Of a stretch of DNA of 45,151 nucleotides, positions 4,242-37,638 are shown in pieces. Under the pieces are notes generated by a model. That model saw only the letters and a list, made by a program, of their open reading frames with translations, had not been told where the DNA came from and did not search any database. The stretch is from Plantimonas leprariae (lineage in GTDB: Bacteria; Pseudomonadota; Alphaproteobacteria; Rhizobiales; Rhizobiaceae): NCBI RefSeq assembly GCF_008802405.1, contig NZ_VZDO01000026.1:1-45151 (forward strand). Direction: 5' to 3'. Position 1 is the first letter of the stretch. Every line of letters begins with the position of its first letter. A program made the translations under genes and the position numbers.

Positions 4242-5126
4242 TCATCTGGGCAGATCATAGGTTCGCAGGATCGTGCGGATCCTAGCGTCCTGGGCGGGGT
4301 CGGGCAGAAGCGCGGGCTGGCGGCTCGCGCCGACCGTCGGGTCCATGAGGTAGAGGGCGCGCTTCACGAGCGCCGGCGGATAGCCGAGCGCATAGAGGTC
4401 CTTGCGGAAGTCGCCGAAGATGCCCTGCTGGCGCGCCGCCTCCGCCTCGTCGCTCGCGTTGAAGGCGGCAACGATGCCGGCGAGCACTTTCGGCATCACG
4501 TTGCCGAGCCCGGAGATGCAGCCCGCCGCGCCGTTCCGGAGCGACCAGTGCACGAGATGGTCGGGGCCGGAATAGACGGCGAAGCCCGGGCTCTCGCGCC
4601 CGACACCGAGATAGGCCTCCAGCGTATCCTGCGCACCGCCGGAATCCTTGATGCCGGCGATGTTGCCGTGCCGGCTGAGCGTCCTCGCGGTCTCCGGCTC
4701 GATATGGTTCTGGGTCCGCGCCGGAATGTCGTAGAGGTAGACCGGCGTTCGGACCGCGTCCGCGACAGCCGAGAAATGGCGGATCAATCCGTCCTGCGTC
4801 GCCTGAATGAAGAAGGGCGTGATGACGGCGATGCCGTCGACGCCGATCCGGTCGAACTCGCGCGCAAGCATGAGCGTCTCGAAGGTCGCGGGCATGCCGG
4901 CATTGACGATGACGCGGGCGCGTCCCGCCGCCTCGTCCACCACGGCTTGCGTGAGCCGCACCTTTTCCGCGAAGGTCAGCGCCGTGAAGTCGCCGTTGGT
5001 GCCAGCGCACATGATGTTGTTGCCGGCCTCCACCTGGCGGCGTACCTGTGCCCGCGTCGCTTCGAGATCGAGCGTCTCGTCGTCGCGAAAGCAGGTGACG
5101 AGAGCGACGAAGGCTTGGGCTGGCAT
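4242..5126 (-). CDS. Dihydrodipicolinate synthase/N-acetylneuraminate lyase family protein
   Basis: 294 residues, the usual length for this class I (Schiff-base) aldolase/dehydratase TIM-barrel family. The Schiff-base lysine is K160 in AGIKDSGG and the catalytic tyrosine is Y132 in YLYDIPART. The carboxylate-binding loop reads GTNGDF (42-47) rather than the GTTGE of true DapA, arguing against a lysine-biosynthesis role. Family members condense or cleave pyruvate with an aldehyde, or dehydrate keto-deoxy sugar acids. It is the last gene of a tight leftward operon (kinase, PdxA2, iron alcohol dehydrogenase, this gene; 20-base gap before it). I infer a retro-aldol cleavage giving pyruvate plus an aldehyde that neighbours process. 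The start has GGAG upstream. The exact substrate cannot be read from the sequence. Confidence 0.85.
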   Translation of the reverse strand: MPAQAFVALVTCFRDDETLDLEATRAQVRRQVEAGNNIMCAGTNGDFTALTFAEKVRLTQAVVDEAAGRARVIVNAGMPATFETLMLAREFDRIGVDGIAVITPFFIQATQDGLIRHFSAVADAVRTPVYLYDIPARTQNHIEPETARTLSRHGNIAGIKDSGGAQDTLEAYLGVGRESPGFAVYSGPDHLVHWSLRNGAAGCISGLGNVMPKVLAGIVAAFNASDEAEAARQQGIFGDFRKDLYALGYPPALVKRALYLMDPTVGASRQPALLPDPAQDARIRTILRTYDLPR

Positions 5127-5146
5127 CGGGAACTCCGTTTCGGCGC

Positions 5147-6301
5147 TCAGTAGGCGGCTTCGTAGATCGCGAGGATCTCGGCCTCGCTGATCGGGCGTGG
5201 ATTGTTGTCGAGGAGTCGGCGGATCGCGTGCGCTTCCCGCGCCATCGCGCCTAGATCCTCGCGCGGCACCTGGAGCGCCGACAGGCGCATCTCGCAGCCG
5301 AGGTCGGCGCAGTAACGATGGGCGGCCTCCAGCACCTCGCCCTCGTTCCGCCCGGCGCGAAGGCCGAGCGCTTCGAGGACGGCCGCGGTCTTCTCCGGCG
5401 CTGCCGGTGCGTTGAAGGCGAGCGTGTGGGGGAAGACGAGAGCGTTCGCCGCGCCGTGCGCGACGTGGTGCCGTGTGCCGAGCGGATAGGCGACGGCGTG
5501 GCCGGAGGTCGTGTTCACCGGTCCGAGGCAGAAGCCGCCGTATAGCGAAGCGAGGCTCAAGCCCGCGCGCGATTCGACGTCGGAGCCGTCGCGGATGGCG
5601 CGCGAGAGGTAACGGCCGACGAGCCGCGTGCCTTCGAGCGCGTACATATCGATGAGCGGATGGGCTTTCCGGCTCGTGAAGGCCTCCACGCAATGCGCCA
5701 TGGCATCGACGCCGCTGGCGGCGGTGACGGCGGGCGGCAGGCTCAGCGTCAGGTCGGGATCGACGATCGCGATGTCGGCCAGCATGTGGACGCTCTGGAC
5801 GGCGAGCTTGTTCTGAGAGGCGGGATCGGTGACGAGCGCGCGCGTGCCCGCTTCGCTGCCCGTGCCGGCGGTGGTCGGTACCTGCATCAGCCGGGCACGG
5901 CGGCCGGCGACCTTCTCGGCGCCGACGACGTCGGCGATGCGCTGACCGCTGCCTGCGAGCGCGGCGACGAGCTTGGCAATATCCATGGCCGAGCCGCCGC
6001 CGAAACCGATCACGAGATCGGGCTCGACCTCCTCGGCCCTCCGGATCGCGGCTTCGAGGTTCGGCACGTCCGGCTCGGGCCGCACCTCGCCGAAGACGGC
6101 GACCTCGCCGGGCAGGCCCAGCGCGTCGATCCGCCCCGCGTTGAAGGCATCGGCGACGACGAGGATGCGCCGGCAGTTCTCCGCCTTGGCGAAGCGCGCG
6201 GCGGCGCGCAGCGCGCCGGAGCCGAACTCGACGATGCGCGGCCGGATGATCGAGATCGGCGCCGCGAGGCTTGGCGCGAGCAGGGAGGATGGGACGTTCA
6301 T
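5147..6301 (-). CDS. Iron-containing alcohol dehydrogenase (group III)
   Basis: 384 residues. The N-terminal NAD(P)-binding half carries GGGSAMD at 101-107. The C-terminal helical half carries the metal ligands: D199 and H203 in GVDAMAHCVEA, H268 in SGHAVAYPLG and H282 in VAHGAANAL, as in Fe-dependent dehydrogenases such as lactaldehyde reductase and maleylacetate reductase. It interconverts an aldehyde or ketone and an alcohol with NAD(P)H. It starts 13 bases after pdxA2 ends and ends 20 bases before the DapA-family gene begins, so it is surely co-transcribed. I infer it reduces or oxidises the short aldehyde released by the lyase or a related intermediate. An in-frame upstream extension to 6409 runs into pdxA2 and is rejected; the chosen start has GGAG 10 bases upstream. 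Confidence 0.87.
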   Translation of the reverse strand: MNVPSSLLAPSLAAPISIIRPRIVEFGSGALRAAARFAKAENCRRILVVADAFNAGRIDALGLPGEVAVFGEVRPEPDVPNLEAAIRRAEEVEPDLVIGFGGGSAMDIAKLVAALAGSGQRIADVVGAEKVAGRRARLMQVPTTAGTGSEAGTRALVTDPASQNKLAVQSVHMLADIAIVDPDLTLSLPPAVTAASGVDAMAHCVEAFTSRKAHPLIDMYALEGTRLVGRYLSRAIRDGSDVESRAGLSLASLYGGFCLGPVNTTSGHAVAYPLGTRHHVAHGAANALVFPHTLAFNAPAAPEKTAAVLEALGLRAGRNEGEVLEAAHRYCADLGCEMRLSALQVPREDLGAMAREAHAIRRLLDNNPRPISEAEILAIYEAAY

Positions 6302-6314
6302 GAGAGGTCTCCCG

Positions 6315-7343
6315 TCAGGCCGCCGCGCGGGCGCTCGCCAGCCGCTCGGCATAGTCGATGGCCTCGACGAGGCTGAGTTCGTTGGCGATGCCCTTGCCGG
6401 CGATGTCAAAGGCGGTGCCGTGATCGACCGAGGTGCGCACGATCGGTAGGCCGAGCGTGATGTTGACGCCGGACAGCGCGTCCCAGGTACCGGTCGCGGG
6501 GTTCACGTTGAAGCCGAGGAGCTTCACCGGGATGTGCCCCTGGTCGTGGTACATGGCGATCACGGCGTCGTACTGGCCAGCCCTGAGCTTCACGAACACC
6601 GTGTCGCCCGGCACCGGGCCGACGACGTCGAGCCCGTCGGCGACGGCGGCGGCGATGGTGGGCGCGGACACCTCGTCGTCCTGGCGCCCGAAGAGTCCGC
6701 CTTCGCCGGCATGCGGGTTGAGGGCCGCGACCGCGATGCGCCGGCGCCCAAGCCCGAGTCGCCCGAGTGCGTCGTTCGTGCGGTCGATGACGAAGCGCAG
6801 ACGCTCCGGTGTCAGTCGCGCCGGCACGTCCTGGAGCGCGACATGGGTGGTGAGATGGCTGACGCGCATGTTGTCGTGGGCGAGCATCATCACCGAGCCG
6901 CGCGCGCCGGTGAGTTCGGCGAGCATCTCGGTATGGCCAGCGTAATGGTAGCCCGCCTTATTCAGGGCTTCCTTGTTGAGCGGCGCGGTGACGATGCCCC
7001 CGATGCGCCCCGCCTCGGCCAGCCGCACGCCGCGCTTGACGGCGAGATAGGCGAAGCGGCCGGCATCGGCCGACAGGACGCCCGGCCGGATCGGCTCGCC
7101 TTCGGGGCCGGCCTGGAGGCAGGCGAGATGCGGCCATTCCCGATCGTCCGCCCCGACTTCCGGAAGCTCGACGTCGAGCTTCAGCGCGTCGCGCGCGGCG
7201 AGGAGCGAGGGGTTCGAGCCGATCACGAGGAGGCGGAGGTCGCCGCGGTCGAGCCGATCCTTCAGGCGAGCGCAGGCCTTGACGATGATCTCCGGCCCGA
7301 CGCCCGCCGGATCGCCCATGGTGATGGCGAGATGCGGCATCAT
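6315..7343 (-). CDS. pdxA2: PdxA2-type four-carbon acid-sugar phosphate dehydrogenase
   Basis: 342 residues, PdxA fold. It starts with LAITMGDPAGVGPEI and has the metal-binding histidines H167 (TTHVAL), H211 (NPHAGEGG) and H266 (YHDQGH). The YHDQGHIPVKL form and the pairing with a DUF1537 kinase mark it as PdxA2 rather than the pyridoxine enzyme. Known PdxA2 enzymes oxidise D-threonate 4-phosphate or D-erythronate 4-phosphate with NAD+, and the product decarboxylates to dihydroxyacetone phosphate. The start codon overlaps the stop of the kinase gene (ATGATG: start at 7343 or 7340, stop TGA at 7342-7340), so translation is coupled. Which stereoisomer is used is not visible. A role in vitamin B6 synthesis is a less likely alternative, because no B6 genes are near. 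Confidence 0.88.
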   Translation of the reverse strand: MMPHLAITMGDPAGVGPEIIVKACARLKDRLDRGDLRLLVIGSNPSLLAARDALKLDVELPEVGADDREWPHLACLQAGPEGEPIRPGVLSADAGRFAYLAVKRGVRLAEAGRIGGIVTAPLNKEALNKAGYHYAGHTEMLAELTGARGSVMMLAHDNMRVSHLTTHVALQDVPARLTPERLRFVIDRTNDALGRLGLGRRRIAVAALNPHAGEGGLFGRQDDEVSAPTIAAAVADGLDVVGPVPGDTVFVKLRAGQYDAVIAMYHDQGHIPVKLLGFNVNPATGTWDALSGVNITLGLPIVRTSVDHGTAFDIAGKGIANELSLVEAIDYAERLASARAAA

Positions 7344-8443
7344 GCTTGGATTCCCTGGCTGGCGGGCGCGACAAGGTCGCGCAGGAAGTCGACGCTCCCG
7401 AAGGCGCCGGATTTTGAGACGACGGCGGTGCCGTCCCAGCGCCCGCCCTTCAGGACGGAGCGCGGCACGCCCGGCACGACCTCGCCCGTGACGTTGAGGC
7501 CTCCCGCGCCGAGCGCGTCGCAAAGGCGTCTCAGCGTCTCGCCGCCCGCGACGAGGAGCGTTCCGGGCGGGGCCAGCCGCCCTGCGAGCGCGGCGAAGGC
7601 GGCGCCGATATGATCGGCGGCGGGTCCGCGTCCCGTTCCCGGCGGCACGGACACCGTGAGGAAGACCGCGCCGCGCTCGCGGAGGAGACGTTCGATGCAT
7701 CCGGCCTCGGCTTCGACGTCGTGGACGATCTCGTGCCAGTCGACCACGCGCTTGAGCTGGCCGCGCATCACCTCGTGATCGGTGCCGAACAGCCCGAGGA
7801 TAGTGGAAGGGAGCGGCTGCGGCGACGGACGCGCCGTTCCTGCGTGCCGGCGGGCGATGGCGGCCGCCAGGCCGCCGCTCCCGACCCAGACGACGTCCGC
7901 GGGTACGGGCGTCGACGCGATCCGATCTAGATCGGCGTCGGTCTCGGCGTCGAAGAGGGTGATGCCGGGGCACGGCGCCTCGCCTGGTGCGGCGCGGTGG
8001 ACAAGGTGACCGGTGGCTTCGAGGCGGGCGCCGAGATCGGCGTCGGTCGGGCGCCATTCGCCGCTGGGAGCGCGGACCATCTGCCGCCCGGCGCGCGTCG
8101 CGCGGTTCTGTGCGGGAAAGGCGGGGGCGAGGACGCAGAACTCCGGCCGGAGGACGTCGAGGATCGCGCCGATCTCTTCCGCCTCTCGGCCGCGCAGGAG
8201 GCTGTCGATCTTCTTGTAGCGGATCGCGGTTCCGGCGGAGCCGAGGAGAGGCGCGAGATCGCGCAGCCTCGCCGTCGCCTCGGCGGGTTCGGTTTCTCGC
8301 GTGCCGCTGTCATAGGCGAGGCTGCCTTGAGCGGCAGGAACATGACACCAGCGCACGGGAACCGGCGCGTCCGGCGAGGCGAAGGCGGCCGCGCTGTCGA
8401 GCGCGCCCGTCAGGTCGTCCGCGATGAGCCGCAGCGCCGTCAT
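7340..8443 (-). CDS. Four-carbon acid-sugar kinase family protein (DUF1537; DtnK/DenK-like)
   Basis: 367 residues. The N-terminal domain begins LRLIADDLTGALDSAAAFA, with the two aspartates of the substrate domain. KKIDSLLRG (about 75) replaces the more common KKxDSTLRG. The C-terminal ATP-binding domain has GGETLRRL and VVSKSGAFG near the end, matching the GGDT and KxGxFG motifs of the family. It is shorter than the common 400-430 residues. Known members phosphorylate D-threonate, D-erythronate or 3-oxo-tetronates at O4. It is the first gene of a four-gene operon with pdxA2, and a probable operator/promoter lies about 100 bases upstream (8541-8555). The predicted job is to make the 4-phosphate that PdxA2 then oxidises. 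GAGGTG lies upstream of the ATG. Confidence 0.88.
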   Translation of the reverse strand: MTALRLIADDLTGALDSAAAFASPDAPVPVRWCHVPAAQGSLAYDSGTRETEPAEATARLRDLAPLLGSAGTAIRYKKIDSLLRGREAEEIGAILDVLRPEFCVLAPAFPAQNRATRAGRQMVRAPSGEWRPTDADLGARLEATGHLVHRAAPGEAPCPGITLFDAETDADLDRIASTPVPADVVWVGSGGLAAAIARRHAGTARPSPQPLPSTILGLFGTDHEVMRGQLKRVVDWHEIVHDVEAEAGCIERLLRERGAVFLTVSVPPGTGRGPAADHIGAAFAALAGRLAPPGTLLVAGGETLRRLCDALGAGGLNVTGEVVPGVPRSVLKGGRWDGTAVVSKSGAFGSVDFLRDLVAPASQGIQA

Positions 8444-8540
8444 GCGGGTTTCCGCACCTCCCGATGAATTACGGATGAACCGGCGGTTGCTGAAGCCGGA
8501 CCGCCATTCCTATCGGGTAGCTAACAGATTACGGAAAAAC

Positions 8541-8555
8541 CTGTCAACATGTTAA
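8541..8555 (-). promoter_or_regulatory. Candidate operator/-35 of the kinase operon
   Basis: On the minus strand the site reads TTAACATGTTGACAG. It matches 12 of 15 bases of the perfect inverted repeat TTGTCATGTTGACAA found before the ABC importer (10723-10737). It contains TTGACA (8547-8542), a good -35 hexamer for the kinase gene. No strong -10 is seen at 16-18 bases spacing. It lies between the regulator stop and the kinase start, so it may be bound by the adjacent GntR-family regulator. Confidence 0.55.
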
Positions 8556-8570
8556 ATAGCGTTTGATCGT

Positions 8571-9329
8571 CTATAGTGAGAGATCGAGGAGCCGGCCTTC
8601 GAACAGGCGCTGGAGCGAGCCTTCCAGATGGCTTCGCATGCGCGCGGCCGCGACCTGCGAGTCGCGAGCGCGGATCGCGTCGAGGATGCCGCGATGCTCC
8701 TCGAAGACGCGCTGGAGGCCAGGGCTCGGCCCGAGAAGGGCCAGGCCGTGCAGCTTCATGCCGACGGCGATGTGCTCCCTCAGCGCGTGCAGCGCCGACA
8801 GGTGATAGTGGTTGTTGGCGGCCTGCGCCACGGCGACGTGGAAGGCGAAATCGGCGTCCTCGCGGTGCCGCTGCTGGCGCGTGGCGTCGTCGAGGAGCGC
8901 GAGCGCGGCCTCGATCCGACTGAGCGCCTCGTCGTTGCGGCGAAGCGCGGCGTGCGCCGCCGCGTCCGGCTCGATGGTCAGGCGGAACTCGTAGCAGCGC
9001 TGGATGTCCGCGATGGTCTCCACCGGCGCGAAGCCGAGATTCTGCGCGGGCGCGGGCGGGCGGGACACGCGCGCGAAGGAGCCGGCGCCGCGTCGGGAAT
9101 AGATCAGCCCTTCGCCGCGCAGGCGTTCCAGGGCTTCCCGCACGATCGGGCGCGACACGTCGAAATTCGCAGCGAGGTCGTACTCGCCGGGCAGCTTCTC
9201 GTCCGACCCATAGGCGCCGGAGAGGATGCGCTCCTTGAGCGCCTCGTAGACCCGTTCCGACAAGGGGCCGGGGCGCGCCGCGGGCGCCCGCGAGGGCTCC
9301 ATGTCCGTTTCGTTCGCGCCTGCCTTCAT
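8571..9329 (-). CDS. GntR-family regulator, FadR/FCD subfamily
   Basis: 252 residues. The N-terminal winged helix-turn-helix spans about residues 20-90 and includes LSERVYEALKERILSGAYG, LPGEYDLAANFDVSRPIVREALERL and the wing GLIYSRRGAGSF. The C-terminal FCD ligand domain (about 105-245) carries the usual metal ligands: D and H in DADFAFHVAVA, H in EEHRGILDAI and H in MRSHLEG. FCD regulators commonly sense sugar acids or other carboxylates and repress adjacent catabolic genes. It lies between the sialidase-like gene and the kinase operon on the same strand. Related 15-bp sites near 8541, 10627 and 10723 are its likely targets. The start at 9329 has AAGGAAA upstream; an in-frame start at 9398 is less supported. 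Confidence 0.88.
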   Translation of the reverse strand: MKAGANETDMEPSRAPAARPGPLSERVYEALKERILSGAYGSDEKLPGEYDLAANFDVSRPIVREALERLRGEGLIYSRRGAGSFARVSRPPAPAQNLGFAPVETIADIQRCYEFRLTIEPDAAAHAALRRNDEALSRIEAALALLDDATRQQRHREDADFAFHVAVAQAANNHYHLSALHALREHIAVGMKLHGLALLGPSPGLQRVFEEHRGILDAIRARDSQVAAARMRSHLEGSLQRLFEGRLLDLSL

Positions 9330-9407
9330 GGGCTTTCCTTCGCTGCGACCGCGAACACGATGACAGGAACGGCAGCCCTTGCGAAGCGCACCCTCCACCT
9401 CGCGCCG

Positions 9408-10577
9408 CTAGCCCTGTGCATCGAGCCAGCCGGGCGAGAGGCGCACGTGGCGGATGGCCCGGCGCTTGTAGGTGAAGGCGAGGTGCAGCGCGCCGTCCGG
9501 AGCCTCCGCGAGCACGGGATAGGAAAGCTCCTGGTTGCGCCCGTCCTCCGAATTGTTCGACAGGCAGGTTCCGGCCGAGTCCTCGATGACGTGGCGCTCT
9601 AGGAAGGTGCGGCCGCCGTCCGCGGACAGGCAGAGCGCCAGCGGTGCGCGGGGAACGCCCCACACCGGCGCGCAGCCGCCGGTGGCGTCCTCGCGCGCGG
9701 CGTCCTCGCCGAGCTCGTCGTAGAGCGACTGGCGGCGGTCGGGCGAGGTCGCGGCGGAGGACGGATTGCAGATGAGGGCGACGCGCCCGTCCCGCAACCG
9801 GATCGCGCCGATCGAGGAGTTGTTGTTGGGAACGTCGGTCGGCTCGGGCGCCTCCCACGTGCGTCCGCCGTCCCGGCTTTCTGAACGATACACGAAGTCG
9901 GCCTGACGGCGGCGAAAGAACGCGGCCATCCTCTCGCCGTCGAGCGGCACGATCGTCATGTGGACGCAGCCGATCGAACCCGGCACCTCGAAAAGTCGCC
10001 ACGTCCGGCCGTCGTCTTCGCTCACCGCGACGCCCGCCGTGTCGTGGCTGCCCGTCCAGCGCCGCCCCGGCGGCGCGATGCAGCGGAACACGGGCAGCAT
10101 CCAGGTGCCATCGTCGCGAACCACGATCGGCGCCCGGACGAAGGTGCCGCGCGGCAGGTCGAGGATGGCCGCCTCGCCCCCTTCGATCATGCCGCCCGCG
10201 AGGTTCACCGAGCGCCGGCGCAGGAGGCAATCCTCCTGATTGCCGGAAACTTGGGCCGTGTGGAGCAGCACAAGATCGCCGCCCGGCGCACGGAAAAGCA
10301 CCGGGTTCTGCTCCGAGCGGTCCGGGTCGTCGCTCAGCCGCACGGCATCGCTCCAGCGTTCCGCGCCCGGATCGAGCTTCGCGACATGGATGGAGACATC
10401 GGACTTGCCCTCCAGCGTACCGCCGAACCAAGCGCAAAGGAGCGTGCCGTCGGGCTCGAGATGAAGGAAGGCTGCATGGTTCTGGACCATCGGCGAAGCG
10501 AGAAGAGCGGCTTCTCCTCCCGATCCGTTCGCTTGGAGACGTCCGGTCATCCGTGTCGCAATATCTTCGAGCACCAT
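9408..10577 (-). CDS. Sialidase-like Asp-box (BNR) beta-propeller protein, no signal peptide
   Basis: 389 residues from the chosen start. Three Asp-boxes are clear: SEDDGRTW at 186-193, SRDGGRTW at 234-241 and SADGGRTF at 318-325, the signature of six-bladed sialidase-type propellers. RAPIVVRDDGTWMLPVF (148-164) and an arginine-rich tail are also sialidase-like. There is no signal peptide or membrane anchor, so it probably works in the cytoplasm. Known relatives include GH33 sialidases and uncharacterised enzymes often annotated exo-alpha-sialidase. In this cluster I infer it acts on the imported compound (glycosidase, lyase or isomerase), but the chemistry is unknown. The start at 10577 has GGAGG 8 bases upstream; in-frame ATG and GTG codons farther up (to 10622) lack one. 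Confidence 0.78.
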   Translation of the reverse strand: MVLEDIATRMTGRLQANGSGGEAALLASPMVQNHAAFLHLEPDGTLLCAWFGGTLEGKSDVSIHVAKLDPGAERWSDAVRLSDDPDRSEQNPVLFRAPGGDLVLLHTAQVSGNQEDCLLRRRSVNLAGGMIEGGEAAILDLPRGTFVRAPIVVRDDGTWMLPVFRCIAPPGRRWTGSHDTAGVAVSEDDGRTWRLFEVPGSIGCVHMTIVPLDGERMAAFFRRRQADFVYRSESRDGGRTWEAPEPTDVPNNNSSIGAIRLRDGRVALICNPSSAATSPDRRQSLYDELGEDAAREDATGGCAPVWGVPRAPLALCLSADGGRTFLERHVIEDSAGTCLSNNSEDGRNQELSYPVLAEAPDGALHLAFTYKRRAIRHVRLSPGWLDAQG

Positions 10578-10626
10578 CGCACCAGCCTCCGTCTCCAGCA
10601 TCCGAGAAGAGGAGCCGGACACTTGG

Positions 10627-10641
10627 ATGTCAAGTTGTAAA
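10627..10641. promoter_or_regulatory. Weak third copy of the candidate operator
   Basis: The plus strand reads ATGTCAAGTTGTAAA, matching 10 of 15 bases of the reverse complement of the site at 10723-10737. On the minus strand TTGACA (10633-10628) could be the -35 for the sialidase-like gene, about 50 bases upstream of its start. No good -10 is visible. Confidence 0.35.
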
Positions 10642-10722
10642 TCAACAAAACTCGCTTCTTTGCGCCGGAAACCGATATGAAAGCAGTGTGCAAGGAGGCA
10701 AGGCGAGTTCGTCCGCCAGATT

Positions 10723-10759
10723 TGTCATGTTGACAACTCGTTGCACTGGGAACATGTTC
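10723..10759 (+). promoter_or_regulatory. Promoter with perfect 6-3-6 inverted repeat, ABC importer operon
   Basis: TTGTCA-TGT-TGACAA (10723-10737) is a perfect inverted repeat. It overlaps a consensus -35 TTGACA (10731-10736); 17 bases later CATGTT (10754-10759) is a partial -10. The site lies about 110 bases before the solute-binding-protein start. An operator over the -35 fits repression by the GntR/FCD regulator. A 12/15 match precedes the kinase operon. Confidence 0.6.
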
Positions 10760-10868
10760 TGGCCCCATCGAGGGCGCGGCGCGTCGCGTACAGGCGGCGC
10801 GACGCTGTCGTCCTCGCAAGAGCGAGGGCTGCGAGAGCCCTCGCAGGGCGACGGTTTGGGAGGATCGG

Positions 10869-12374
10869 ATGACGAGCTTGAAATTCCTGACGGCCGCGCT
10901 GCTGGCGGCGGCCGGTACCACCCCGGCGCTGGCGCAGGCGAAAAGCGACGTGACGGTCGTTCTCGGTGAGGAACTCGATCTCGTCGAGCCTTGCATGGCG
11001 ACCCGCTCCAACATCGGCCGCGTGATCCTCGAAAACATTTCCGAGACGCTGACGGAACTCGACTCGAAGAACGGCGGCAAGGTCTCGCCGCGACTGGCCG
11101 AAAGCTGGGCGGATCAGGGCAACGGCACCTGGCGCTTCAAGCTTCGCCAGAACGTCAAGTTCTCCGATGGCACCGCCTTCGACGCCGAGGACGTGAAGCA
11201 CTCGCTGGAGCGCGCCACGAGCCCGAAGATCTCGTGCGAACTGTCGCGCTATTTCGGCGACACCAAGCTGACGGCCACCGCTGTCGACGCCACGACCCTC
11301 GACGTCAAGGCCGAGCCGCCGCAGCCGATCCTGCCGCTTCTGATGTCGGTGCTGACGATCGTGCCGAGCGAAACGCCGATCGAGTTCACGCGCACGCCCG
11401 TCGGCACGGGACCCTTCGTCCTGTCGAACTGGACGCCGGGTCAGAGCATCGTGCTCGACCGTCGCGACGACTACTGGGGAACCAAGCCGGCGGTCACGAA
11501 GGCGACCTACGTCTTCCGCACCGATTCGGCCGTGCGCGCCGCGATGGTGCAGGCGGGCGAGGCCGATCTCGCGCCCTCGATCTCGCAGCTCGACGCGACG
11601 AACCCGAAGACCGACTTCTCCTATCCGAACTCCGAGACGATGTACCTGCGCGTCGACACGGCGATCCCGCCGATGAACGACAAGCGCGTGCGCCAAGCTC
11701 TCAACATGGCGATCGACCGCACAGCCTTCATCGGCTCGCTCCTGCCGGAAGGCACCGAGCCGGCCGTCGCCATCGTGCCGCCGACGACGCTCGGCTGGAA
11801 CAAGGACATTAAGGTCCCGGCCTACGACGTCGAGGGCGCGAAGAAGCTGCTGGCCGAGGCGAAAGCCGACGGCGTGCCGGTGGACACGCCGATCGAGCTG
11901 ATCGGGCGCAACAACAACTATCCGAACGCGACGGAGGTGAACGAGGCGATCCAGGCGCAGCTCCAGGACGCCGGCTTCACGGTGAACCTCAAGATGCTCG
12001 ACGTCGCCGAGCAGGAGAAGCTTTATTCCAAGCCCTATCTCGAAGGGCGCCCGCCGCAGCTCCTTTCCGTGCTCCACGACAATGCCAAGGGCGATCCCGT
12101 CTTCTCGGCCTTCTTCAAGTACGATTCGAAGGGCCGCCAGTCAGGCATCTCGGACCCGAAGGTGGACGACCTCATCGCCCGCGCCAGCGCCGCCACCGGC
12201 GAGGAGCGCGCCAAGCTCTGGTCGGAGCTCTTCACCTATGTCCACGACGACGTGGTGGCCGACGTGCTTCTCTTCCACATGGTCGGCTTCGCGCGCGTCG
12301 CCGAGCGGCTCGACTTCAAGCCGACGATCGCCACCAACTCGCAGCTTCAGCTCTCCGAAATCGGCCTGAAGTGA
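10869..12374 (+). CDS. ABC transporter solute-binding protein, family 5 (dipeptide/oligopeptide type)
   Basis: 501 residues with a Sec signal peptide (about residues 1-23, hydrophobic LTAALLAAAGTTPALAQA, cleavage after ALA or AQA). The mature part is a cluster C binding protein: YNN-like start VVLGEELDLVEP, RLAESWADQGNGTWRFKLRQNVKFSDGTAFDAEDVKHSLERA near 75-120, and RVRQALNMAIDR near 275. It binds its ligand in the periplasm and delivers it to the two permeases encoded next. Family 5 proteins carry peptides but also nickel, oligosaccharides, opines and plant sugar-acid compounds. Here the divergent sugar-acid genes argue for a sugar-acid-containing ligand. GGGAGG lies 5 bases before the ATG. 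Confidence 0.9.
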   Translation: MTSLKFLTAALLAAAGTTPALAQAKSDVTVVLGEELDLVEPCMATRSNIGRVILENISETLTELDSKNGGKVSPRLAESWADQGNGTWRFKLRQNVKFSDGTAFDAEDVKHSLERATSPKISCELSRYFGDTKLTATAVDATTLDVKAEPPQPILPLLMSVLTIVPSETPIEFTRTPVGTGPFVLSNWTPGQSIVLDRRDDYWGTKPAVTKATYVFRTDSAVRAAMVQAGEADLAPSISQLDATNPKTDFSYPNSETMYLRVDTAIPPMNDKRVRQALNMAIDRTAFIGSLLPEGTEPAVAIVPPTTLGWNKDIKVPAYDVEGAKKLLAEAKADGVPVDTPIELIGRNNNYPNATEVNEAIQAQLQDAGFTVNLKMLDVAEQEKLYSKPYLEGRPPQLLSVLHDNAKGDPVFSAFFKYDSKGRQSGISDPKVDDLIARASAATGEERAKLWSELFTYVHDDVVADVLLFHMVGFARVAERLDFKPTIATNSQLQLSEIGLK

Positions 12375-12381
12375 TGCCAAA

Positions 12382-12406
12382 CGCCGGGCGGTTTCGCCGC
12401 CCGGCG
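12382..12406 (+). other. Intercistronic GC-rich hairpin between binding protein and permease
   Basis: A perfect 10-bp stem (CGCCGGGCGG at 12382-12391 with CCGCCCGGCG at 12397-12406) and a 5-base loop TTTCG lie just after the binding-protein stop. No T-run follows. Known from other importers: such hairpins protect the binding-protein mRNA and lower permease output, giving excess binding protein. That role is inferred here. Confidence 0.65.
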
Positions 12407-12430
12407 CCTCGATCATCGGGAGGCGACTTG

Positions 12431-13345
12431 ATGTTCCGCTTCGTGCGCAAGAGGCTCACCGCCAGCCTCGTCTCGCTCGTCGGCCTCGTGGTGCTCGTGT
12501 TCTTCCTGACGCGGCTGACGGGCGATCCGACCGACCTCTTCCTGCCGATCGACGCGACACAGGCGATGCGCGACCAGTTCCGCGCGATCCACGGGCTGAA
12601 CGATCCGCTCGTCGTCCAGTTCGGGCGCTACGTCTGGGACCTCCTGCATCTCGATTTCGGCGAATCCATCCGCCGCGCCCGGCCGGCGATCGACGTGGTA
12701 CTCGAAGCTTTCGTCTGGACCTTCCAACTCGCCGTGATCACCATGACGCTCGTCGCGGTCTTCGCGACCGTCATGGGATCGCTGACCGCCTTCTTCGTCG
12801 GGCGCCTGTTCGACCGCGTCGTCACCTTCGTCTCGCTGGTCGGCGCGTCGGCGCCGGATTTCTGGATCGCGATCGTCGCGATCGTCCTCTTCTCGATCCA
12901 TCTCGGGCTCCTGCCGACGTCGGGCACGGGCGGCTGGCAGTTCTGGGTGCTGCCCGTTGCCGTCCTCTTCATCCGGCCCTTCGGCCTCATCGTGCAGGTG
13001 GTACGCGGCTCGATGATCTCGGCGCTCGCCGCGCCTTACGTGAAGACGGCGCGGGCGAAAGGCGTGAAGGCGCGGCCCATCGTCTTCGTCCACGCGCTGC
13101 GCAACGCCATGCTGCCCGTCATCACCGTGATGGGCGACCAGGCGGCGGCGCTTCTGAACGGCGCCGTCGTGGTGGAAACGATCTTCGGCTTCCCCGGCGT
13201 CGGCAAGCTGATGATCGACGCCATCCTCCAGCGCGATTTCAACGTCATCCTCGCCTCGATCATGGTGACGGCGATCGCGATCTTCGTGATGAACCTCCTG
13301 ATCGACCTCGCCTATCTCCTGCTCGATCCCCGGATCAGGGCTTGA
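12431..13345 (+). CDS. ABC transporter permease (DppB/OppB-like)
   Basis: 304 residues of inner-membrane permease. The first transmembrane segment is at about residues 10-30 (LVSLVGLVVLVFFLTRLTGDP), followed by five more. The coupling EAA-type loop is near 205-240 (YVKTARAKGVKARPIVFVHALRNAMLPV), and the chain ends in DLAYLLLDPRIRA, typical of DppB. The start at 12431 follows GGGAGG; a longer in-frame start at 12371 overlaps the binding-protein stop and is less likely. It forms a heterodimer with the next product to make the translocation channel. Confidence 0.92.
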   Translation: MFRFVRKRLTASLVSLVGLVVLVFFLTRLTGDPTDLFLPIDATQAMRDQFRAIHGLNDPLVVQFGRYVWDLLHLDFGESIRRARPAIDVVLEAFVWTFQLAVITMTLVAVFATVMGSLTAFFVGRLFDRVVTFVSLVGASAPDFWIAIVAIVLFSIHLGLLPTSGTGGWQFWVLPVAVLFIRPFGLIVQVVRGSMISALAAPYVKTARAKGVKARPIVFVHALRNAMLPVITVMGDQAAALLNGAVVVETIFGFPGVGKLMIDAILQRDFNVILASIMVTAIAIFVMNLLIDLAYLLLDPRIRA

Positions 13346-13350
13346 AACCG

Positions 13351-14274
13351 ATGTCCGTTCTATCCTCGCCCGCACCCGTTGTCGCTGAAGAGAAGCCCGC
13401 CGCGCTTCGCCTCCTCGCCATGCTCTGGCGCGACAAGGTGGCGCTCGTCGCCGCGATCTTCCTCGTTCTCGTCGTTCTTTGCGCGATCCTCGGGCCGCAT
13501 TTCCTGGAAGCCGCCGCGACGAAGCAGAACTTGCGCGGTCGCAACATGGCGCCGTTCTCGCTTTCCCAGGGCTGGCTCTTCGTGCTCGGCGCCGACCAGC
13601 TCGGTCGCTCGCTTCTGGCGCGCATCGTCGTCGCCGCGCAGAGCACGATGCTGGTCGCGGCCGGGGCCGTCGTCTGCTCGGCCATCATCGGCACCGTGCT
13701 CGGCCTCCTTGCCGGCTACGGCGGCAAGCGGACCGGCGAGGCGATCGCGCGGCTCGGCGACGTGATCATGTCCTTTCCCTCGCTGCTTCTCGCGGTGATC
13801 GTGCTCTACGTCCTGTCGCCGTCGGTCGGGAACCTCGTGATCGTCCTCGCGATCACCCGCATCCCCGTTTATCTGCGCACCGCGCGCGCCGAGATCCTCG
13901 AAGTGCGCGAGCGCATGTTCGTGCAGGCGGCGAAAGTCATGGGCGCGAGCCACGGGCGCATCATGTTCCGCCACATCCTGCCGGTCGTCGCCCCGACGCT
14001 CCTCACCATCGCGACGCTCGACTTCGCCTTCGTGATGCTGGCGGAAAGCTCGCTCTCCTTTCTCGGCATCGGCATCCAGCCGCCGGACATCACCTGGGGC
14101 CTGATGGTGGCGCAGGGGCGCCCCTACCTCTCGAACGCCTGGTGGCTTTCGTTCTGGCCGGGCCTCGCGATCATCCTCACCACCATGTCGCTGAACCTTC
14201 TGTCCGGCTGGATGCGCATCGCGCTCGACCCCGTGCAGCGCTGGCGGCTGGAAGGAACCAGGAAGAATGGCTGA
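13351..14274 (+). CDS. ABC transporter permease (DppC/OppC-like)
   Basis: 307 residues. It has the DppC-type cytoplasmic N-terminus, a first membrane segment at about 35-52 (LVAAIFLVLVVLCAILGP), the periplasmic loop with LGADQLGRSLLARI, and the EAA loop RTARAEILEVRERMFVQAAKVMGASHGRIMFRHILP near 170-205. ESSLSFLGIGIQPPDITWGLMVAQGR near the end is diagnostic of DppC/OppC. The ATG at 13351 lies 5 bases after the previous stop; a TTG at 13342 overlapping that stop is an alternative start. It overlaps the ATPase gene by 8 bases, so the genes are co-translated. Confidence 0.92.
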   Translation: MSVLSSPAPVVAEEKPAALRLLAMLWRDKVALVAAIFLVLVVLCAILGPHFLEAAATKQNLRGRNMAPFSLSQGWLFVLGADQLGRSLLARIVVAAQSTMLVAAGAVVCSAIIGTVLGLLAGYGGKRTGEAIARLGDVIMSFPSLLLAVIVLYVLSPSVGNLVIVLAITRIPVYLRTARAEILEVRERMFVQAAKVMGASHGRIMFRHILPVVAPTLLTIATLDFAFVMLAESSLSFLGIGIQPPDITWGLMVAQGRPYLSNAWWLSFWPGLAIILTTMSLNLLSGWMRIALDPVQRWRLEGTRKNG

Positions 14275-15895
14275 CGCGCTTCTGGAAGTGATCGACCTCG
14301 CCGTCACCTTCCATACGGCGAACGGGCCCGTGCAGGCGGTGAAGGGCATCAGCTACCGGCTCGGCCGGGGCGAAACGCTGGCGGTGCTCGGCGAGTCCGG
14401 CTCCGGCAAGTCGGTCTCGGCCTCCGCCATCATGAACCTTCTCGACATGCCGCCGGCGGAGATCGTGCGCGGGCGCATCCTCTACGAAGGGCGCGATCTC
14501 CTGACCCTTAACCACGAGGAACGGCGGCAGATCAACGGGCGCAAGATCGCGATGGTCTTCCAGGACCCGCTCAGCCACCTGAACCCCGTTTATCCGGTCG
14601 GCTGGCAGATCGCCGAGACGATGACGGCGCACGGCCGCCCGAAGCGGGAAGCCGAGGCCCGTGCGCTGGAACTCGTCCGCCGCGTCGGCATCCCCGAGCC
14701 CGAGACGGCTCTCGCCAAGTATCCGCACGAGTTCTCCGGCGGGCAGCGTCAGCGCCTGATGATCGCGATGGCGCTGGCGCTGAAGCCCGACATCCTCATC
14801 GCCGACGAGCCGACGACGGCGCTCGACGTCACCGTGCAGGCGGAAATCCTCCAGCTTCTGGAGGAGCTTCAGGCCGAGACCGGCATGGGCCTCCTCCTCA
14901 TCACGCACGATCTCGGCGTCGTGGCGGAAGTCGCCGACCGCGTCGTCGTGATGAACGGCGGCGAGATCGTCGAGGAGGGCGAGGCCGGCGAGGTCTACCG
15001 CAACCCGAAGCACCCCTATACGAAGAAGCTCATCGACGCCGCGCCCGGCAAGGGCGAGATGCGGCGGCCCGAGGGCGCCAACGAGCCGCTCCTGAAGGTG
15101 CGGAACGTTTCCAAGCTCTACGGCAACTTCGCCGGGTTGAGGGAGGCGAGCTTCGACCTCCAGCCCGGCGAGACGCTCGCGATCGTCGGCGAAAGCGGCT
15201 CGGGCAAGTCGACGCTCGCCAAGGTGCTGATGCGGCTGGAGGAGGCCAATTCCGGCACCGCGCACTACAAGGGCCGCGATCTTCTGGCCATGACCCCGCG
15301 CGAGACCGCCTCGATCCGGCGCGAGATCCAGATGGTGTTCCAGGATCCGACGCAGTCCCTGAACCCGCGCATGACGGTCTTCGACCTCGTCTCGGAGGCC
15401 TGGGTGATCCATCCGTCCGTCCTGCCCCGGCTACGCTGGCGCGAGCGCGTGGGCGAGCTTCTGGCGGAGGTCGGCCTCGCGCCCGAGCACATGCGCCGTT
15501 ATCCGCACCAGTTCTCCGGCGGGCAGCGCCAGCGCATCGCGATCGCGCGGGCGCTGGCGCTGGAGCCCGACCTCATCGTCTGCGACGAGGCGGTCTCGGC
15601 GCTCGACGTGTCGGTGCAGGCGCAGGTGATCGCGCTTCTCGAGCGCCTGCAGCGCGAGCACGGGATCGCCTTCGTGTTCATCGCGCACGATCTCGCGCTG
15701 GTGCGCGACTTCGCCGACCACGTGCTGGTGATGAAGGGCGGGCACATCGTCGAACAGGGCACGGTGCGCCAGGTGTTCGAGACCCCGCGCGAGGACTACA
15801 CGCGCGCGCTTCTCGCCGCCGGCCTCGACGCCGACCCTAAACAGCAAGCCGAGCGACGCCGCTTGCGGCAGGAGGGGCTCGCGGCGGCGCAATAG
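14267..15895 (+). CDS. ABC transporter ATP-binding protein, fused tandem ATPase (DppD-DppF type)
   Basis: 542 residues with two complete ATPase domains in one chain. Domain 1: Walker A GESGSGKS near 43-50, signature FSGGQRQRL near 157, Walker B ILIADEPTTALD. Domain 2: Walker A GESGSGKST near 308, signature FSGGQRQRI near 416, Walker B LIVCDEAVSALD. Both have the H-loop (LLITHDLGVV; FIAHDLALV). This GsiA-like fusion powers the importer alone, where many systems use two proteins. It is the last intact gene of the rightward operon; a decayed gene with a good ribosome site follows at once. Confidence 0.93.
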   Translation: MADALLEVIDLAVTFHTANGPVQAVKGISYRLGRGETLAVLGESGSGKSVSASAIMNLLDMPPAEIVRGRILYEGRDLLTLNHEERRQINGRKIAMVFQDPLSHLNPVYPVGWQIAETMTAHGRPKREAEARALELVRRVGIPEPETALAKYPHEFSGGQRQRLMIAMALALKPDILIADEPTTALDVTVQAEILQLLEELQAETGMGLLLITHDLGVVAEVADRVVVMNGGEIVEEGEAGEVYRNPKHPYTKKLIDAAPGKGEMRRPEGANEPLLKVRNVSKLYGNFAGLREASFDLQPGETLAIVGESGSGKSTLAKVLMRLEEANSGTAHYKGRDLLAMTPRETASIRREIQMVFQDPTQSLNPRMTVFDLVSEAWVIHPSVLPRLRWRERVGELLAEVGLAPEHMRRYPHQFSGGQRQRIAIARALALEPDLIVCDEAVSALDVSVQAQVIALLERLQREHGIAFVFIAHDLALVRDFADHVLVMKGGHIVEQGTVRQVFETPREDYTRALLAAGLDADPKQQAERRRLRQEGLAAAQ

Positions 15896-23309: not shown

Positions 23310-24538
<1,229 letters not shown>

Positions 24539-24561
24539 GGCTCCATTCTCTCAAAAACTGG

Positions 24562-24588
24562 AGCCTCCAGAAAGCCCGGCGCGGTTCA
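24562..24588 (-). repeat. Right terminal inverted repeat of the IS
   Basis: Read on the minus strand it starts TGAACCGCGCCGGG, with two differences from the left end (positions 15 and 20). Integrase sequence begins directly after it. Confidence 0.85.
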
Positions 24589-25706
24589 CAGCGCTTCGCT
24601 GCCGCCGTCTGCGGCAGTTCCTTCGGTCCAGGGACATAGGCAAGGGCGGCGGCAAGGATCGCGCGAGCTTCGGCATCGGTGAAGCCTTTTGGGCGCGTCT
24701 GCTGTTTTCGGCCGATCTTGATCGACAACCCGGCCGCCGGGTTCATTGGCAGCTTGTGGTTCATCACCGCCCAGCCAAAGAGCGTCTTCAAAGCCGACAG
24801 GTCGCTGTCCTTGACGGTCTTGGCGCTTGGCACCTTGCCGGTGCGCGGTGAGGGCGTGCTGAGGCGATGGTCCTTGAAGGCAACGACATCGTGAGGCGTC
24901 ACGCGGGTCGCCTCGTCGTGCTTGAGGAAGGCAATGAAGCCCCGCACCGTGTTGCGATAGCTTTCGTGCGTGCTCGGCTTGCGGCCGGACGCCTGCGCCT
25001 CCCGCCACCAAGCCTCGAAGAGGTCGTTCATGGAGAGGGCGGACGAGGCCGTAGCGCTTCGGCCGTTCGCACGGCGCGAAGCTGATTGCGCTCGAACGTC
25101 GGCCAGTACCACCTCCCGCGACGACGGTTCGCCGACGATCTCCGGCACCGGTTCGGGGGCAATGACGCCTGCGGATAGCTCGATCAGCGTCTGACTCGCC
25201 CGCTGGAAGGCGGCGGCGATAGCTTTCGCGAGCTTGAGACGGCTTTCGTCGTCGATCTGCAGCCCGTGGTGTGCGAGGCAGTTATCCGCCTGGACATAGC
25301 AAAGCCGGCGCATGGCTCGGATCAGCACCTCGTCCGCGTCGACCTCCGTCATCGTTGGCGTTTCGGAGGTCAGTTGCTTCGACCAGAGCACCCGATAGAG
25401 CTTTGGGTGCCATGCGAACTGCTGGCTCGGCTCGTCCGCGTGCATACGAAGCCAAGTGTCATGCGCCTGAGCAGCGAGGGCATGGCATTCTCGTTCGGTG
25501 AGGGCACGCGTCCCAGCTCGAAGGTTCGCCCAGCGCGCCTCGACCTCGGCGGATACCTTCGCGTAACGAACGCGGGCTTCGGCCGGGTCCTTCGTGCCCA
25601 GCGTCAGCCGCTCCTCCCACTTGCCGACAATCGCACGAAGGTCGTTCGGCACAACGCGCCGAAACCAAAACATACCGGTCTTAGGATGTGGCCAGGGTTG
25701 CGCCAT
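24589..25706 (-). pseudogene. Tyrosine integrase (DUF6538 N-terminus) truncated by the IS
   Basis: About 372 residues remain. The N-terminus MAQPWPHPKTGMFWFRRVVPNDLR is the DUF6538-type arm-binding start. A SAM-like core-binding domain follows (SMNDLFEAWWREAQASGRKPSTHESYRNTVRGF), then the first part of the catalytic domain (KTLFGWAVMNHKLPMNPAAGL). Sequence homologous to the family stops at TAAAKR, where the IS end begins; the R...HxxR...Y catalytic residues are lost. It lies 97 bases from the 3' end of tRNA-Leu and points away from it, the classic layout of an element integrated in a tRNA gene. The ATG at 25706 is preferred over a TTG at 25718. Confidence 0.85.
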
Positions 25707-25803
25707 TCTCAGAGCCAATTGTACCGCCCAGTTGTACCACTCGGGCCGTCATAAGCTACTGTTTTGGCTTATCTCTATGGCTTTCCTGACAAATCAGGAG
25801 AAT

Positions 25804-35993: not shown

Positions 35994-37571
35994 TCAGTTC
36001 TGGCCCATCACCCCGTCGACCCGGCGGAAGAGCTTCAGCGGGTTGCCGTCGCGCAGCGCCTCCGGCTGCAGCGCCGCCGGCATGTCCTGGTAGCAGACCG
36101 GCCGCAGGAACCGGTCGATCGCCAGCGAGCCGACCGAGGTCGAGCGCCCGTCCGAGGTCGACGGGAACGGCCCGCCATGCACCATCGCGTGCGCCACCTC
36201 GACGCCGGTGCCGAAGTTGTTGACGAGGAGCCGGCCGGCGACGCGCTCGAGCTTCGGCAGGATCGCCTTCGCCGCCGCGTGGTCCGCCTCGTCGATGTGG
36301 AGCGAGACGGTGAGTTGGCCCTCCAGCGACTCGATCACCTTCGCGACCTCGGCTTCGTCGCGGCAGCGCACGACGAGCGAGGCCGCGCCGAAGATCTCGT
36401 CCTGCAACTCGCGAGCGGCGAGGAAGTCCTCGGCCTTCACCGCGAAGAGCTTCGCCTGCCCGCGCGAGGCGCCGCCGTCCTGGCCTGCCGCGACCTCCGC
36501 GACCGCCGCGTGTCCCGCGACCGCGTCGACACCCTTCCTGTAGGCGTCGAGGATGCCGCGCGTCAGCATCACGGCGGCGGGCATGCCGGACAGCGCTTCC
36601 GCCGCGCCCTTGACGAAGCTGTCGAGGCCTTCGCTTTCGACCGCGATCACGAGGCCGGGATTGGTGCAGAACTGGCCGGCGCCGAGCGTCAACGAGGCAG
36701 CGAAGGCCTTGCCGATCGCCTCGCCGCGGTTCTTCACCGCGCTCGGGAACAGGAAGACCGGGTTGATCGAGCTCATCTCGGCATAGACCGGGATCGGCTG
36801 CTCGCGGCCCGCCGCGATCCGCATCAGCGCGGTGCCGCCGCCACGCGAACCGGTGAAGCCGACCGCCCGGACGCGCCGGTCGGCGACGAGGCCTTGGCCG
36901 ATCTCGCGGCCGGAATCGAACAGGAGCGAGAAGGTGCCTTCCGGCAGGCCACGGTCCTTGACCGCCTTCTGCACGGCGCGGCCGACGAGTTCGGCCGTGC
37001 CGGGATGGGCGGAATGCGCCTTGCCGATCACCGGGCAACCGGCGGCGAGAGCGGAAGCGGTATCGCCGCCCGCGACCGAGAAGGCGAGCGGGAAATTCGA
37101 CGCGCCGAACACCGCGACGGGCCCGAGCGGGATCTTGCGCAGCCGCAGGTCCGGCCGGGGCAGGGGCTTCCTGTCCGGCAATGCCGGATCGAGGCGCAGC
37201 TCCAGGAAGCCGCCGTCGCGCACGACGCCCGCGAAGAGCTTCAACTGGCCGACGGTGCGGCCGCGCTCGCCCTCCACCCGGGCGCGCGGCAGGCCGCTTT
37301 CGGCGCAGCAGCGCTCGACGAGTTCGTCGCCGAGCGCCATGATGTTGTCGGCGATGGCTTCGAGGAAGAGCGCGCGCTCCTCCAGCGAGGTCTCGCGGTA
37401 GGTGTCGAAGGCGGCGTCGGCGAGCGCGCAGGCGCGCTCCAGATCGTCCTTGGTCGCGCCGCCGAAGCTCGGCTGCAGCTTCTCGCCGCTGGCGGCGTCG
37501 AAGCCGAAGATCTCGCCGTTCGCGCCCTTCACGGCCGTCTCGCCGATGAACTGCTGGCCCTGGATGGTCAT
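35994..37571 (-). CDS. 2,5-dioxovalerate (alpha-ketoglutaric semialdehyde) dehydrogenase
   Basis: 525 residues, the longer KGSADH-type aldehyde dehydrogenase. It has [43 protein letters not shown] (cofactor region), [11 protein letters not shown], the general base E in [15 protein letters not shown] and the nucleophile C in [12 protein letters not shown]. It oxidises alpha-ketoglutaric semialdehyde to 2-oxoglutarate with NAD(P)+, the last step of non-phosphorylative pentose and of hexarate or hydroxyproline breakdown. It lies 67 bases downstream of the L-2-keto-3-deoxyarabonate dehydratase gene, whose product is this substrate, so the pathway step is well supported. Confidence 0.92.
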
Positions 37572-37638
37572 GATGGTCTCCTTCGAGCGCTCCCGCGCCC
37601 GCATATAGGTTCGGATGGCGAAAAGCGCGGGTCGCCCG

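Follow-up and report, generated by a model that had tools for sequence, protein, structure and literature searches.

The 45,151-nucleotide (nt) stretch of Plantimonas leprariae DNA analysed here (contig NZ_VZDO01000026.1), called the window below, carries between positions 4242 and 15895 a gene cluster that we read as a putative catabolic pathway for a seven-carbon (C7) sugar diacid, with a sialidase-fold beta-propeller at its entry. All ten genes that a preliminary description had placed there in two divergent arms are present at these positions, each with its Pfam family above the family cut-off (DHDPS, Fe-ADH, PdxA, DUF1537 as SBD_N plus NBD_C, GntR/FCD, BNR_2, SBP_bac_5, BPD_transp_1 twice and a double ABC_tran). 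The left arm runs from the BNR_2 propeller through GntR/FCD, DUF1537, PdxA and an iron-containing alcohol dehydrogenase (Fe-ADH) to the DapA-family gene, and the divergent right arm encodes a family-5 binding protein, two permeases and a double ATPase. The features are as follows, with protein lengths in amino acids (aa).

4242-5126, minus strand: DapA/NanA-family class I lyase, 294 aa, proposed 2-keto-3-deoxy-heptarate (Dha) pyruvate-lyase (Pfam DHDPS; Tyr132, Lys160, Arg137)
5147-6301, minus strand: group III iron-containing alcohol dehydrogenase, 384 aa, proposed reductase of a four-carbon (C4) aldehyde acid, D-threuronate (Pfam Fe-ADH/ADH_Fe_C; co-occurrence with the propeller)
6315-7343, minus strand: PdxA/PdxA2-family 4-phospho-sugar-acid dehydrogenase/decarboxylase, 342 aa (Pfam PdxA)
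7340-8443, minus strand: short DUF1537 four-carbon acid sugar kinase, 367 aa (SBD_N and NBD_C)
8542-8554, no strand: TGTCAACATGTTA, a partial copy, with 2 mismatches, of the candidate operator at 10722, upstream of DUF1537
8571-9329, minus strand: FadR/GntR-type regulator, 252 aa (GntR and FCD domains; best NCBIfam match NanR)
9408-10601, minus strand: sialidase-fold BNR_2 beta-propeller, apparently intracellular, 397 aa, proposed entry enzyme (BNR_2, AlphaFold2, Foldseek)
10628-10636, minus strand: AACTTGACA element upstream of the propeller gene, its sole occurrence in the window
10722-10736, no strand: inverted repeat TTGTCA-TGT-TGACAA (TTGTCATGTTGACAA), candidate GntR operator between the divergent operons
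10869-12374, plus strand: ABC importer binding protein, family 5, 501 aa (SBP_bac_5)
12371-13345, plus strand: ABC importer permease B (BPD_transp_1); a start at 12431 suits the family better, and the best NCBIfam permease matches start at residue 21-28
13342-14274, plus strand: ABC importer permease C (BPD_transp_1, OppC_N)
14267-15895, plus strand: ABC importer double ATPase (two ABC_tran stretches, oligo_HPY)

The very tight spacing noted earlier holds at most junctions, where genes overlap or lie at most 20 nt apart: a 4-nt overlap, then 13 nt, then 20 nt along DUF1537-PdxA-ADH-DapA, and overlaps throughout the importer operon, provided the listed starts are right. It does not hold at DUF1537/GntR (127 nt) and GntR/BNR (78 nt), and because of these gaps the left arm may form two transcription units. 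The 4.77-Mb genome contains three DUF1537, three PdxA, eight DHDPS and four Fe-ADH family matches, so that the meeting of all four families within 4.2 kb is unlikely to be due to chance.

Relatives of the propeller were found in 308 of 72,556 plasmid records, mostly rhizobial, and 307 of them cover at least 80% of the query. Twelve plasmid neighbourhoods were viewed, ten of which bear annotated partner genes (Roseateles XES5, whose record carries the mark UNVERIFIED_ORG, S. meliloti, P. alcaliphilus, Shinella, Ensifer, A. fabrum C58, P. ananatis, Caballeronia, A. brasilense and Rhizobium Kim5). The P. ananatis stretch is without an annotated DUF1537 gene and the S. meliloti record without an annotated lyase there. 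The Cupriavidus record is unannotated, and tblastn finds lyase, ADH, kinase and PdxA in it; the Haladaptatus relative (27% identity) has no partner genes.

A genome scan gave at least 591 propeller relatives, from which the best 80 were kept by propeller similarity. Within this set the five genes for propeller, lyase, Fe-ADH, PdxA and DUF1537 stand together in 62 of the 67 loci with full flanks (at least 21 kb) and in 4 of the 13 with shorter flanks. The five full-flank misses are L060, L069, L076, L104 and L120, and in L060, L069 and L104 the gene for the regulator or the kinase reaches the end of the locus. Because the loci share ancestry and were picked for the resemblance of their propellers, they cannot be counted as independent cases; a better argument for co-occurrence than the count is that Azospirillum, Rhizobium Kim5, Caballeronia and Pantoea arrange the genes differently. 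Co-occurrence was seen in alpha-, beta- and gammaproteobacteria. The two operons, taken in the preliminary description to belong to one system, thus do accompany each other elsewhere, and the refuting result named there, operons that never occur together in other genomes, did not arise. Of the 92 loci examined around the propeller, 87 hold a binding-protein match, in most cases in divergent orientation to the propeller gene. The same gene order, for which a neighbourhood comparison had been suggested, is not kept, being reshuffled between lineages.

A sample of 297 genomes from the order yielded 38 with a propeller match at E<=0.001, and in 32 of these the identity is at least 41%. With the window's genome left out, a close Fe-ADH relative (E<=1e-90) occurs in 27/31 propeller genomes versus 8/265 others (Fisher p 5e-27, which takes no account of relatedness), and a lyase relative (E<=1e-70) in 15/31 versus 5/265. 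The sample of the phylum, with 398 genomes, gave 13 that have a propeller match at E<=1e-10. The distant BNR proteins of L044 (27% identity) and of L157, L158, L164 and L165 (29-33%) have no core genes nearby and were for that reason placed outside the family.

All eight genomes that have the Fe-ADH without a propeller carry the lyase gene within about 4 kb of it, and seven of these loci (L178-L182, L185, L186 and L189 in all) also hold DUF1537 and PdxA, the eighth being cut by a contig end. Propeller-free cores contain extra genes whose labels are best NCBIfam matches, each below its cut-off: a D-2-hydroxyacid dehydrogenase (L178, L188), an Ldh_2-type dehydrogenase (L178) and a GlcD-like FAD enzyme (L186). 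Transporter genes of the tricarboxylate type (TctA/TctC) lie in L188 and L186. No Fe-ADH was found in L138 and L140, where an SDR gene adjoins PdxA. We infer a core of four enzymes (lyase, Fe-ADH, DUF1537 and PdxA) with alternative entries, in which a 2-hydroxyacid dehydrogenase would yield the 2-keto acid otherwise supplied by the propeller. The exact set of ten genes that the preliminary description had singled out is not obligatory: propeller, importer type, lyase subfamily and dehydrogenase are each swapped or missing in related clusters. A D-2-hydroxyacid dehydrogenase-like gene is also present in ten propeller loci (L045, L047, L059, L060, L076, L088, L111, L115, L132 and L154). In the L137 genome, one contig holds the propeller with an SSS symporter next to it, and another (L184) a complete lyase-ADH-PdxA-DUF1537 core.

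The window lyase keeps the Schiff-base Lys160 and the active-site Tyr132 of class I pyruvate lyases. It scores 181.7 bits versus a DapA equivalog cut-off of 206.15 (TIGR00674) and is therefore unlikely to be the lysine enzyme; among the eight DHDPS-family matches of the genome another gene scores best. Lysine synthesis is disfavoured for this gene, with further DHDPS copies in the genome and a catabolic context. It also stands far under the NanA cut-offs (102 versus 281 and 80 versus 382 bits). Across 117 DapA-family rows taken from the fetched loci, a few of which may lie outside the clusters, Tyr and Lys are both kept in 114, the remainder being two incomplete rows and one with Gln, and Tyr, Arg and Lys are all kept in 67. 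Arg137 of the window lyase aligns with the place of the DHDPS arginine, which we take to be the residue that binds aspartate semialdehyde through its carboxylate; that compound is likewise a C4 aldehyde acid. The alignment makes Arg137 compatible with a C4 aldehyde-acid product, yet the residue is not universal (Ile, Val, Leu, Lys, Met, Tyr, Phe or a gap stand there in other rows), so that it was kept as a partial indication and not as a general proof. In S. meliloti RCAM1750 (L035:3738-4839) the lyase gene is split over two overlapping open reading frames, through a sequencing error or because the gene is broken. A second DHDPS-family protein of the window (37639-38562, minus strand) adjoins an aldehyde dehydrogenase gene (35994-37604, minus strand); its Tyr position reads Gln, as in one other paralogue of the genome, which suggests a different reaction.

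For the C4 end of the route, DUF1537 kinases and PdxA proteins are known to act in turn by phosphorylation, then oxidation and decarboxylation to dihydroxyacetone phosphate (DHAP). The DUF1537 residues ADDxxGALD, GG and KSGxFG are invariant over 30 aligned rows. The substrate is best indicated by one related cluster, L155, where DUF1537 scores 615 bits against a D-threonate kinase cut-off of 450 and PdxA 681 bits against a D-threonate-4-phosphate dehydrogenase cut-off of 583. These two genes stand opposite Fe-ADH, DapA, an SSS symporter, the propeller, DUF386 and an SDR gene. PdxA of the Pantoea-type clusters L040 and L156 likewise exceeds the D-threonate-4-phosphate dehydrogenase cut-off. By these model scores D-threonate is anchored in one lineage and is extended to the others by inference. 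Vitamin B6 synthesis by the window PdxA is disfavoured, in view of extra PdxA copies and the catabolic context, though the general PdxA model is passed. In the Caballeronia sp. SBC2 plasmid (L041:8028-10331) kinase and PdxA are fused into one protein of 768 aa, which supports the two acting in sequence. A DUF386 protein (YhcH family, the sialate-anomerase family) is encoded in L155 and some other related clusters; for that of L156 the best match is the N-acetylneuraminate anomerase model, whose cut-off it does not reach (96 versus 160 bits). YhcH is described as an anomerase supplying the N-acetylneuraminate aldolase NanA (PMC8141875).

The AlphaFold2 model of the propeller has a pLDDT of 86.7 and a pTM of 0.88, and its best Foldseek matches are sialidases, headed by 1eur (TM 0.74 on the target), in keeping with a GH33-type fold. 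Inspected by eye, the N-termini show no obvious signal peptide; the protein is therefore probably cytoplasmic, acting on an imported compound. Its residues were compared with what we take to be the catalytic Glu, Arg triad, acid/base Asp and Tyr nucleophile of sialidases. An invariant His214 sits on the catalytic Glu in the alignments with NanC (two profiles) and NanB; in NanI, whose alignment is weaker (8.4 bits), a gap stands at this position instead. The GH33 pairing of a catalytic Glu with the Tyr nucleophile was thus not found in these sequence alignments. Arg230 aligns with the second triad Arg in NanC and NanB, and NanI agrees; the acid/base Asp of NanB has Glu64 as its weakly aligned counterpart (5.1 bits). 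Tyr361 and Arg318 were placed by eye only, and the first triad Arg appears replaced by Asn41/His42. Judged by sequence, the propeller does not appear to be a normal sialidase, and we regard it as a putative glycosidase, glycal hydratase or ring-opening enzyme of a Dha-type pathway. It gives a weak match (E 0.0037) to the profile of 5mqr, presumably the structure linked to BT1020, the GH143 Dha hydrolase of Bacteroides thetaiotaomicron.

The regulator has NanR as best NCBIfam match (99 bits versus a cut-off of 260) and is probably a repressor of the divergent promoters. In the 400 nt that precede the propeller match, AACTTGACA occurs in 84 of 92 loci, which are related to one another, versus none of 377 random control windows of 400 nt, mostly coding. 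All 84 copies lie on the coding strand, a median of 51 nt ahead of the match start, and none was found upstream of GntR in the 80 loci checked. Because it contains TTGACA, the element may be a promoter element as well as an operator. The palindrome at 10722 is not conserved as such in the other loci, and no single palindrome common to all loci was found, only AACTTGACA upstream of the propeller being conserved.

Taken together, the cluster belongs to a real and widespread catabolic module, probably an undescribed one. We propose, with a probability of about one half, that it encodes a Dha-type pathway in which an imported C7 2-keto-3-deoxy diacid is converted to pyruvate and DHAP. The ABC importer would take up the compound and the cytoplasmic propeller would turn a cyclic or conjugated form into free Dha. 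The DapA/NanA-type lyase would then cleave Dha to pyruvate and D-threuronate, as its family, catalytic residues and context suggest, the direction being predicted. Fe-ADH would reduce this C4 aldehyde acid to D-threonate, DUF1537 would phosphorylate D-threonate, and PdxA would oxidise and decarboxylate the product to DHAP. The last two steps are anchored on D-threonate because both L155 proteins pass the curated cut-offs, and, working back from there, a class I pyruvate lyase whose second product is a C4 aldehyde acid should have a C7 2-keto-3-deoxy diacid as substrate. Derived by hand, C3-C4 cleavage of Dha (D-lyxo, with C4 left, C5 left and C6 right in the Fischer projection) gives the D-threo C4 aldehyde acid, whose reduction gives D-threonate. 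By comparison of clusters the route from the lyase to DHAP appears fairly well supported; the identity of the C7 diacid is a specific prediction. The preliminary scheme is thus supported in part: its order of steps, from import through propeller, pyruvate lyase and reductase to DHAP formation by kinase/PdxA, agrees with the comparison of clusters, and L155 provisionally links it with D-threonate and with a sugar diacid of the C7 class.

Several observations weigh against this proposal. The window DUF1537 has the D-threonate kinase as best NCBIfam model at 100.3 bits only (cut-off 450), and the window PdxA reaches 294.5 of the 583 bits required by the D-threonate-4-phosphate dehydrogenase model while passing the general, vitamin B6 model TIGR00557 (343.5 versus 290.35 bits). 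PdxA of L154, L041, L133, L043, L178 and L188 and the kinases of L154, L041, L143, L043 and L178 are likewise under the D-threonate cut-offs, and the L133 kinase matched no NCBIfam model at the limit used. The DHDPS-type Arg is missing from a second lyase subfamily, and the propeller from some core clusters. Among 34 fetched regions, mostly with more distant propellers, a profile search found all five genes in only 14; 13 others combine the propeller with two or three of the remaining four genes, L163 has DUF1537 alone beside it, and L137, L139, L157, L158, L164 and L165, the last four with distant relatives, have none. L143-L145, L161-L163 and L166 have no Fe-ADH/PdxA nearby; their genomes carry close Fe-ADH relatives at other places or immediately beyond the region. 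The carriers include soil or marine strains, and no glycosidase for rhamnogalacturonan II (RG-II) was recognised by eye among the recurrent neighbours, a systematic search not having been made.

A first alternative keeps the same downstream route, with import of a free plant C7 diacid such as daucic acid and with the propeller as an intracellular glycal hydratase instead of a glycosidase. Daucic acid (C7H8O7) is formally Dha minus water, to judge by its presumed structure and configuration. Conjugates of it are reported from carrot, sweet potato and banana (PMC7589261, PMC3499688, PMC4950323), and m/z 203.02 fits C7H8O7. The His apparently replacing the catalytic Glu also speaks for this alternative. 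Some related clusters encode SSS, TRAP or TTT transporters, which usually carry monomeric acids. The import of a larger conjugate, as first supposed, is not supported. The window importer, however, is an Opp/Dpp-type ABC system, and we know of no hydratase activity in the propeller's family; we hold this alternative to be unlikely.

Another 2-keto-3-deoxy acid or C4 sugar-acid conjugate (erythronate, L-threonate or a C7 monoacid) might be the substrate, lyase and ADH then acting on the other half. DUF1537 kinases are known for several C4 acids, and the low D-threonate scores in the window and most other tested clusters would suit such a substrate. The L155 equivalogs and the PdxA equivalogs of Pantoea-type clusters point instead to D-threonate, and lyase and ADH persist near the same kinase/PdxA where the propeller is absent; we consider this second alternative unlikely.

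Catabolism of sialic acid, 2-keto-3-deoxynononate (KDN) or 3-deoxy-D-manno-octulosonate (KDO) by an ordinary sialidase and NanA-like lyase would agree with the sialidase fold, the NanR-like regulator and the DUF386 protein of some clusters. Pyruvate cleavage of KDO, KDN and N-acetylneuraminate, however, leaves five- or six-carbon sugars, namely arabinose, mannose or N-acetylmannosamine, none of which is to our knowledge used by DUF1537/PdxA; with this mismatch, the low NanA scores and the apparent replacement of the catalytic Glu, ordinary sialic acid or KDO catabolism was rejected as very improbable. That importer and catabolic operon are chance neighbours, the importer carrying peptides or metals as members of its binding-protein family do (peptide and nickel binders), is hardly credible given the recurrent, mostly divergent binding-protein matches and the conserved element upstream of the propeller.

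If the Dha-type reading is right, it yields a specific biochemical prediction, and the C7 diacids covered would be Dha of RG-II and possibly free plant acids such as daucic acid. Dha is known in plants so far only from RG-II (PMC12168206), where chain D is a disaccharide side chain ending in arabinofuranose, and where Dha and KDO feature in chains C and D (PMC12282258). Within the part of the open-access literature covered, we found no Dha catabolic pathway, no bacterial route for Dha carbon and no description of this cluster. Entry enzymes such as the sialidase-fold propeller and NAD or FAD 2-hydroxyacid dehydrogenases would feed one lyase-reductase-kinase-PdxA core. Its presence in rhizobia, Agrobacterium, Devosia, Paracoccus and Pantoea would link plant-associated bacteria with a rare pectin sugar or related plant acids, and the annotations 'exo-alpha-sialidase', 'dihydrodipicolinate synthase' and 'PdxA' would need correcting. 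A wider claim, which we advance tentatively, as possible rather than likely, is that C7 sugar diacids have here their first known catabolic pathway, with modular entries into one core and a propeller of a new His-for-Glu sialidase-fold type.

Elsewhere in the window, an integrase-core (rve/HTH_21) transposase-like gene (23310-24215, minus strand) and a DUF6538 protein gene (24513-25718, minus strand) possibly belong to a mobile element.

Among known systems, D-threonate catabolism by a DUF1537 kinase (DtnK) and PdxA2, which Zhang et al. are said to have described in 2016, shares the last two steps, and one related cluster passes both of its curated models. The present cluster differs in its additional pyruvate lyase, reductase, sialidase-fold enzyme and dedicated importer, so that D-threonate would be an intermediate and not the imported substrate. 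Sialic acid (nan) operons can contain an importer, a sialidase, the NanA lyase, a GntR/FCD regulator, an SSS symporter and YhcH. Importer, sialidase-fold protein, DapA/NanA-family lyase and GntR/FCD regulator recur here, as do the SSS symporter and the DUF386 protein in some of these clusters; but Fe-ADH, DUF1537 and PdxA, instead of amino-sugar enzymes, would handle the aldehyde, and the propeller appears to be an intracellular protein whose active site is altered. GH143 enzymes are described as sialidase-like five-bladed propellers hydrolysing Dha with a Tyr-Glu pair (PMC6811678). The proposed action of our propeller on Dha resembles theirs, whereas its best matches are GH33-type sialidases and its His is aligned with Glu. 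In the galactarate/glucarate pathway, 5-keto-4-deoxyglucarate is cleaved to pyruvate and tartronate semialdehyde; the logic of aldolase, semialdehyde reductase and kinase is the same, one carbon shorter, with a six-carbon diacid there versus a C7 diacid here and with different enzyme families.

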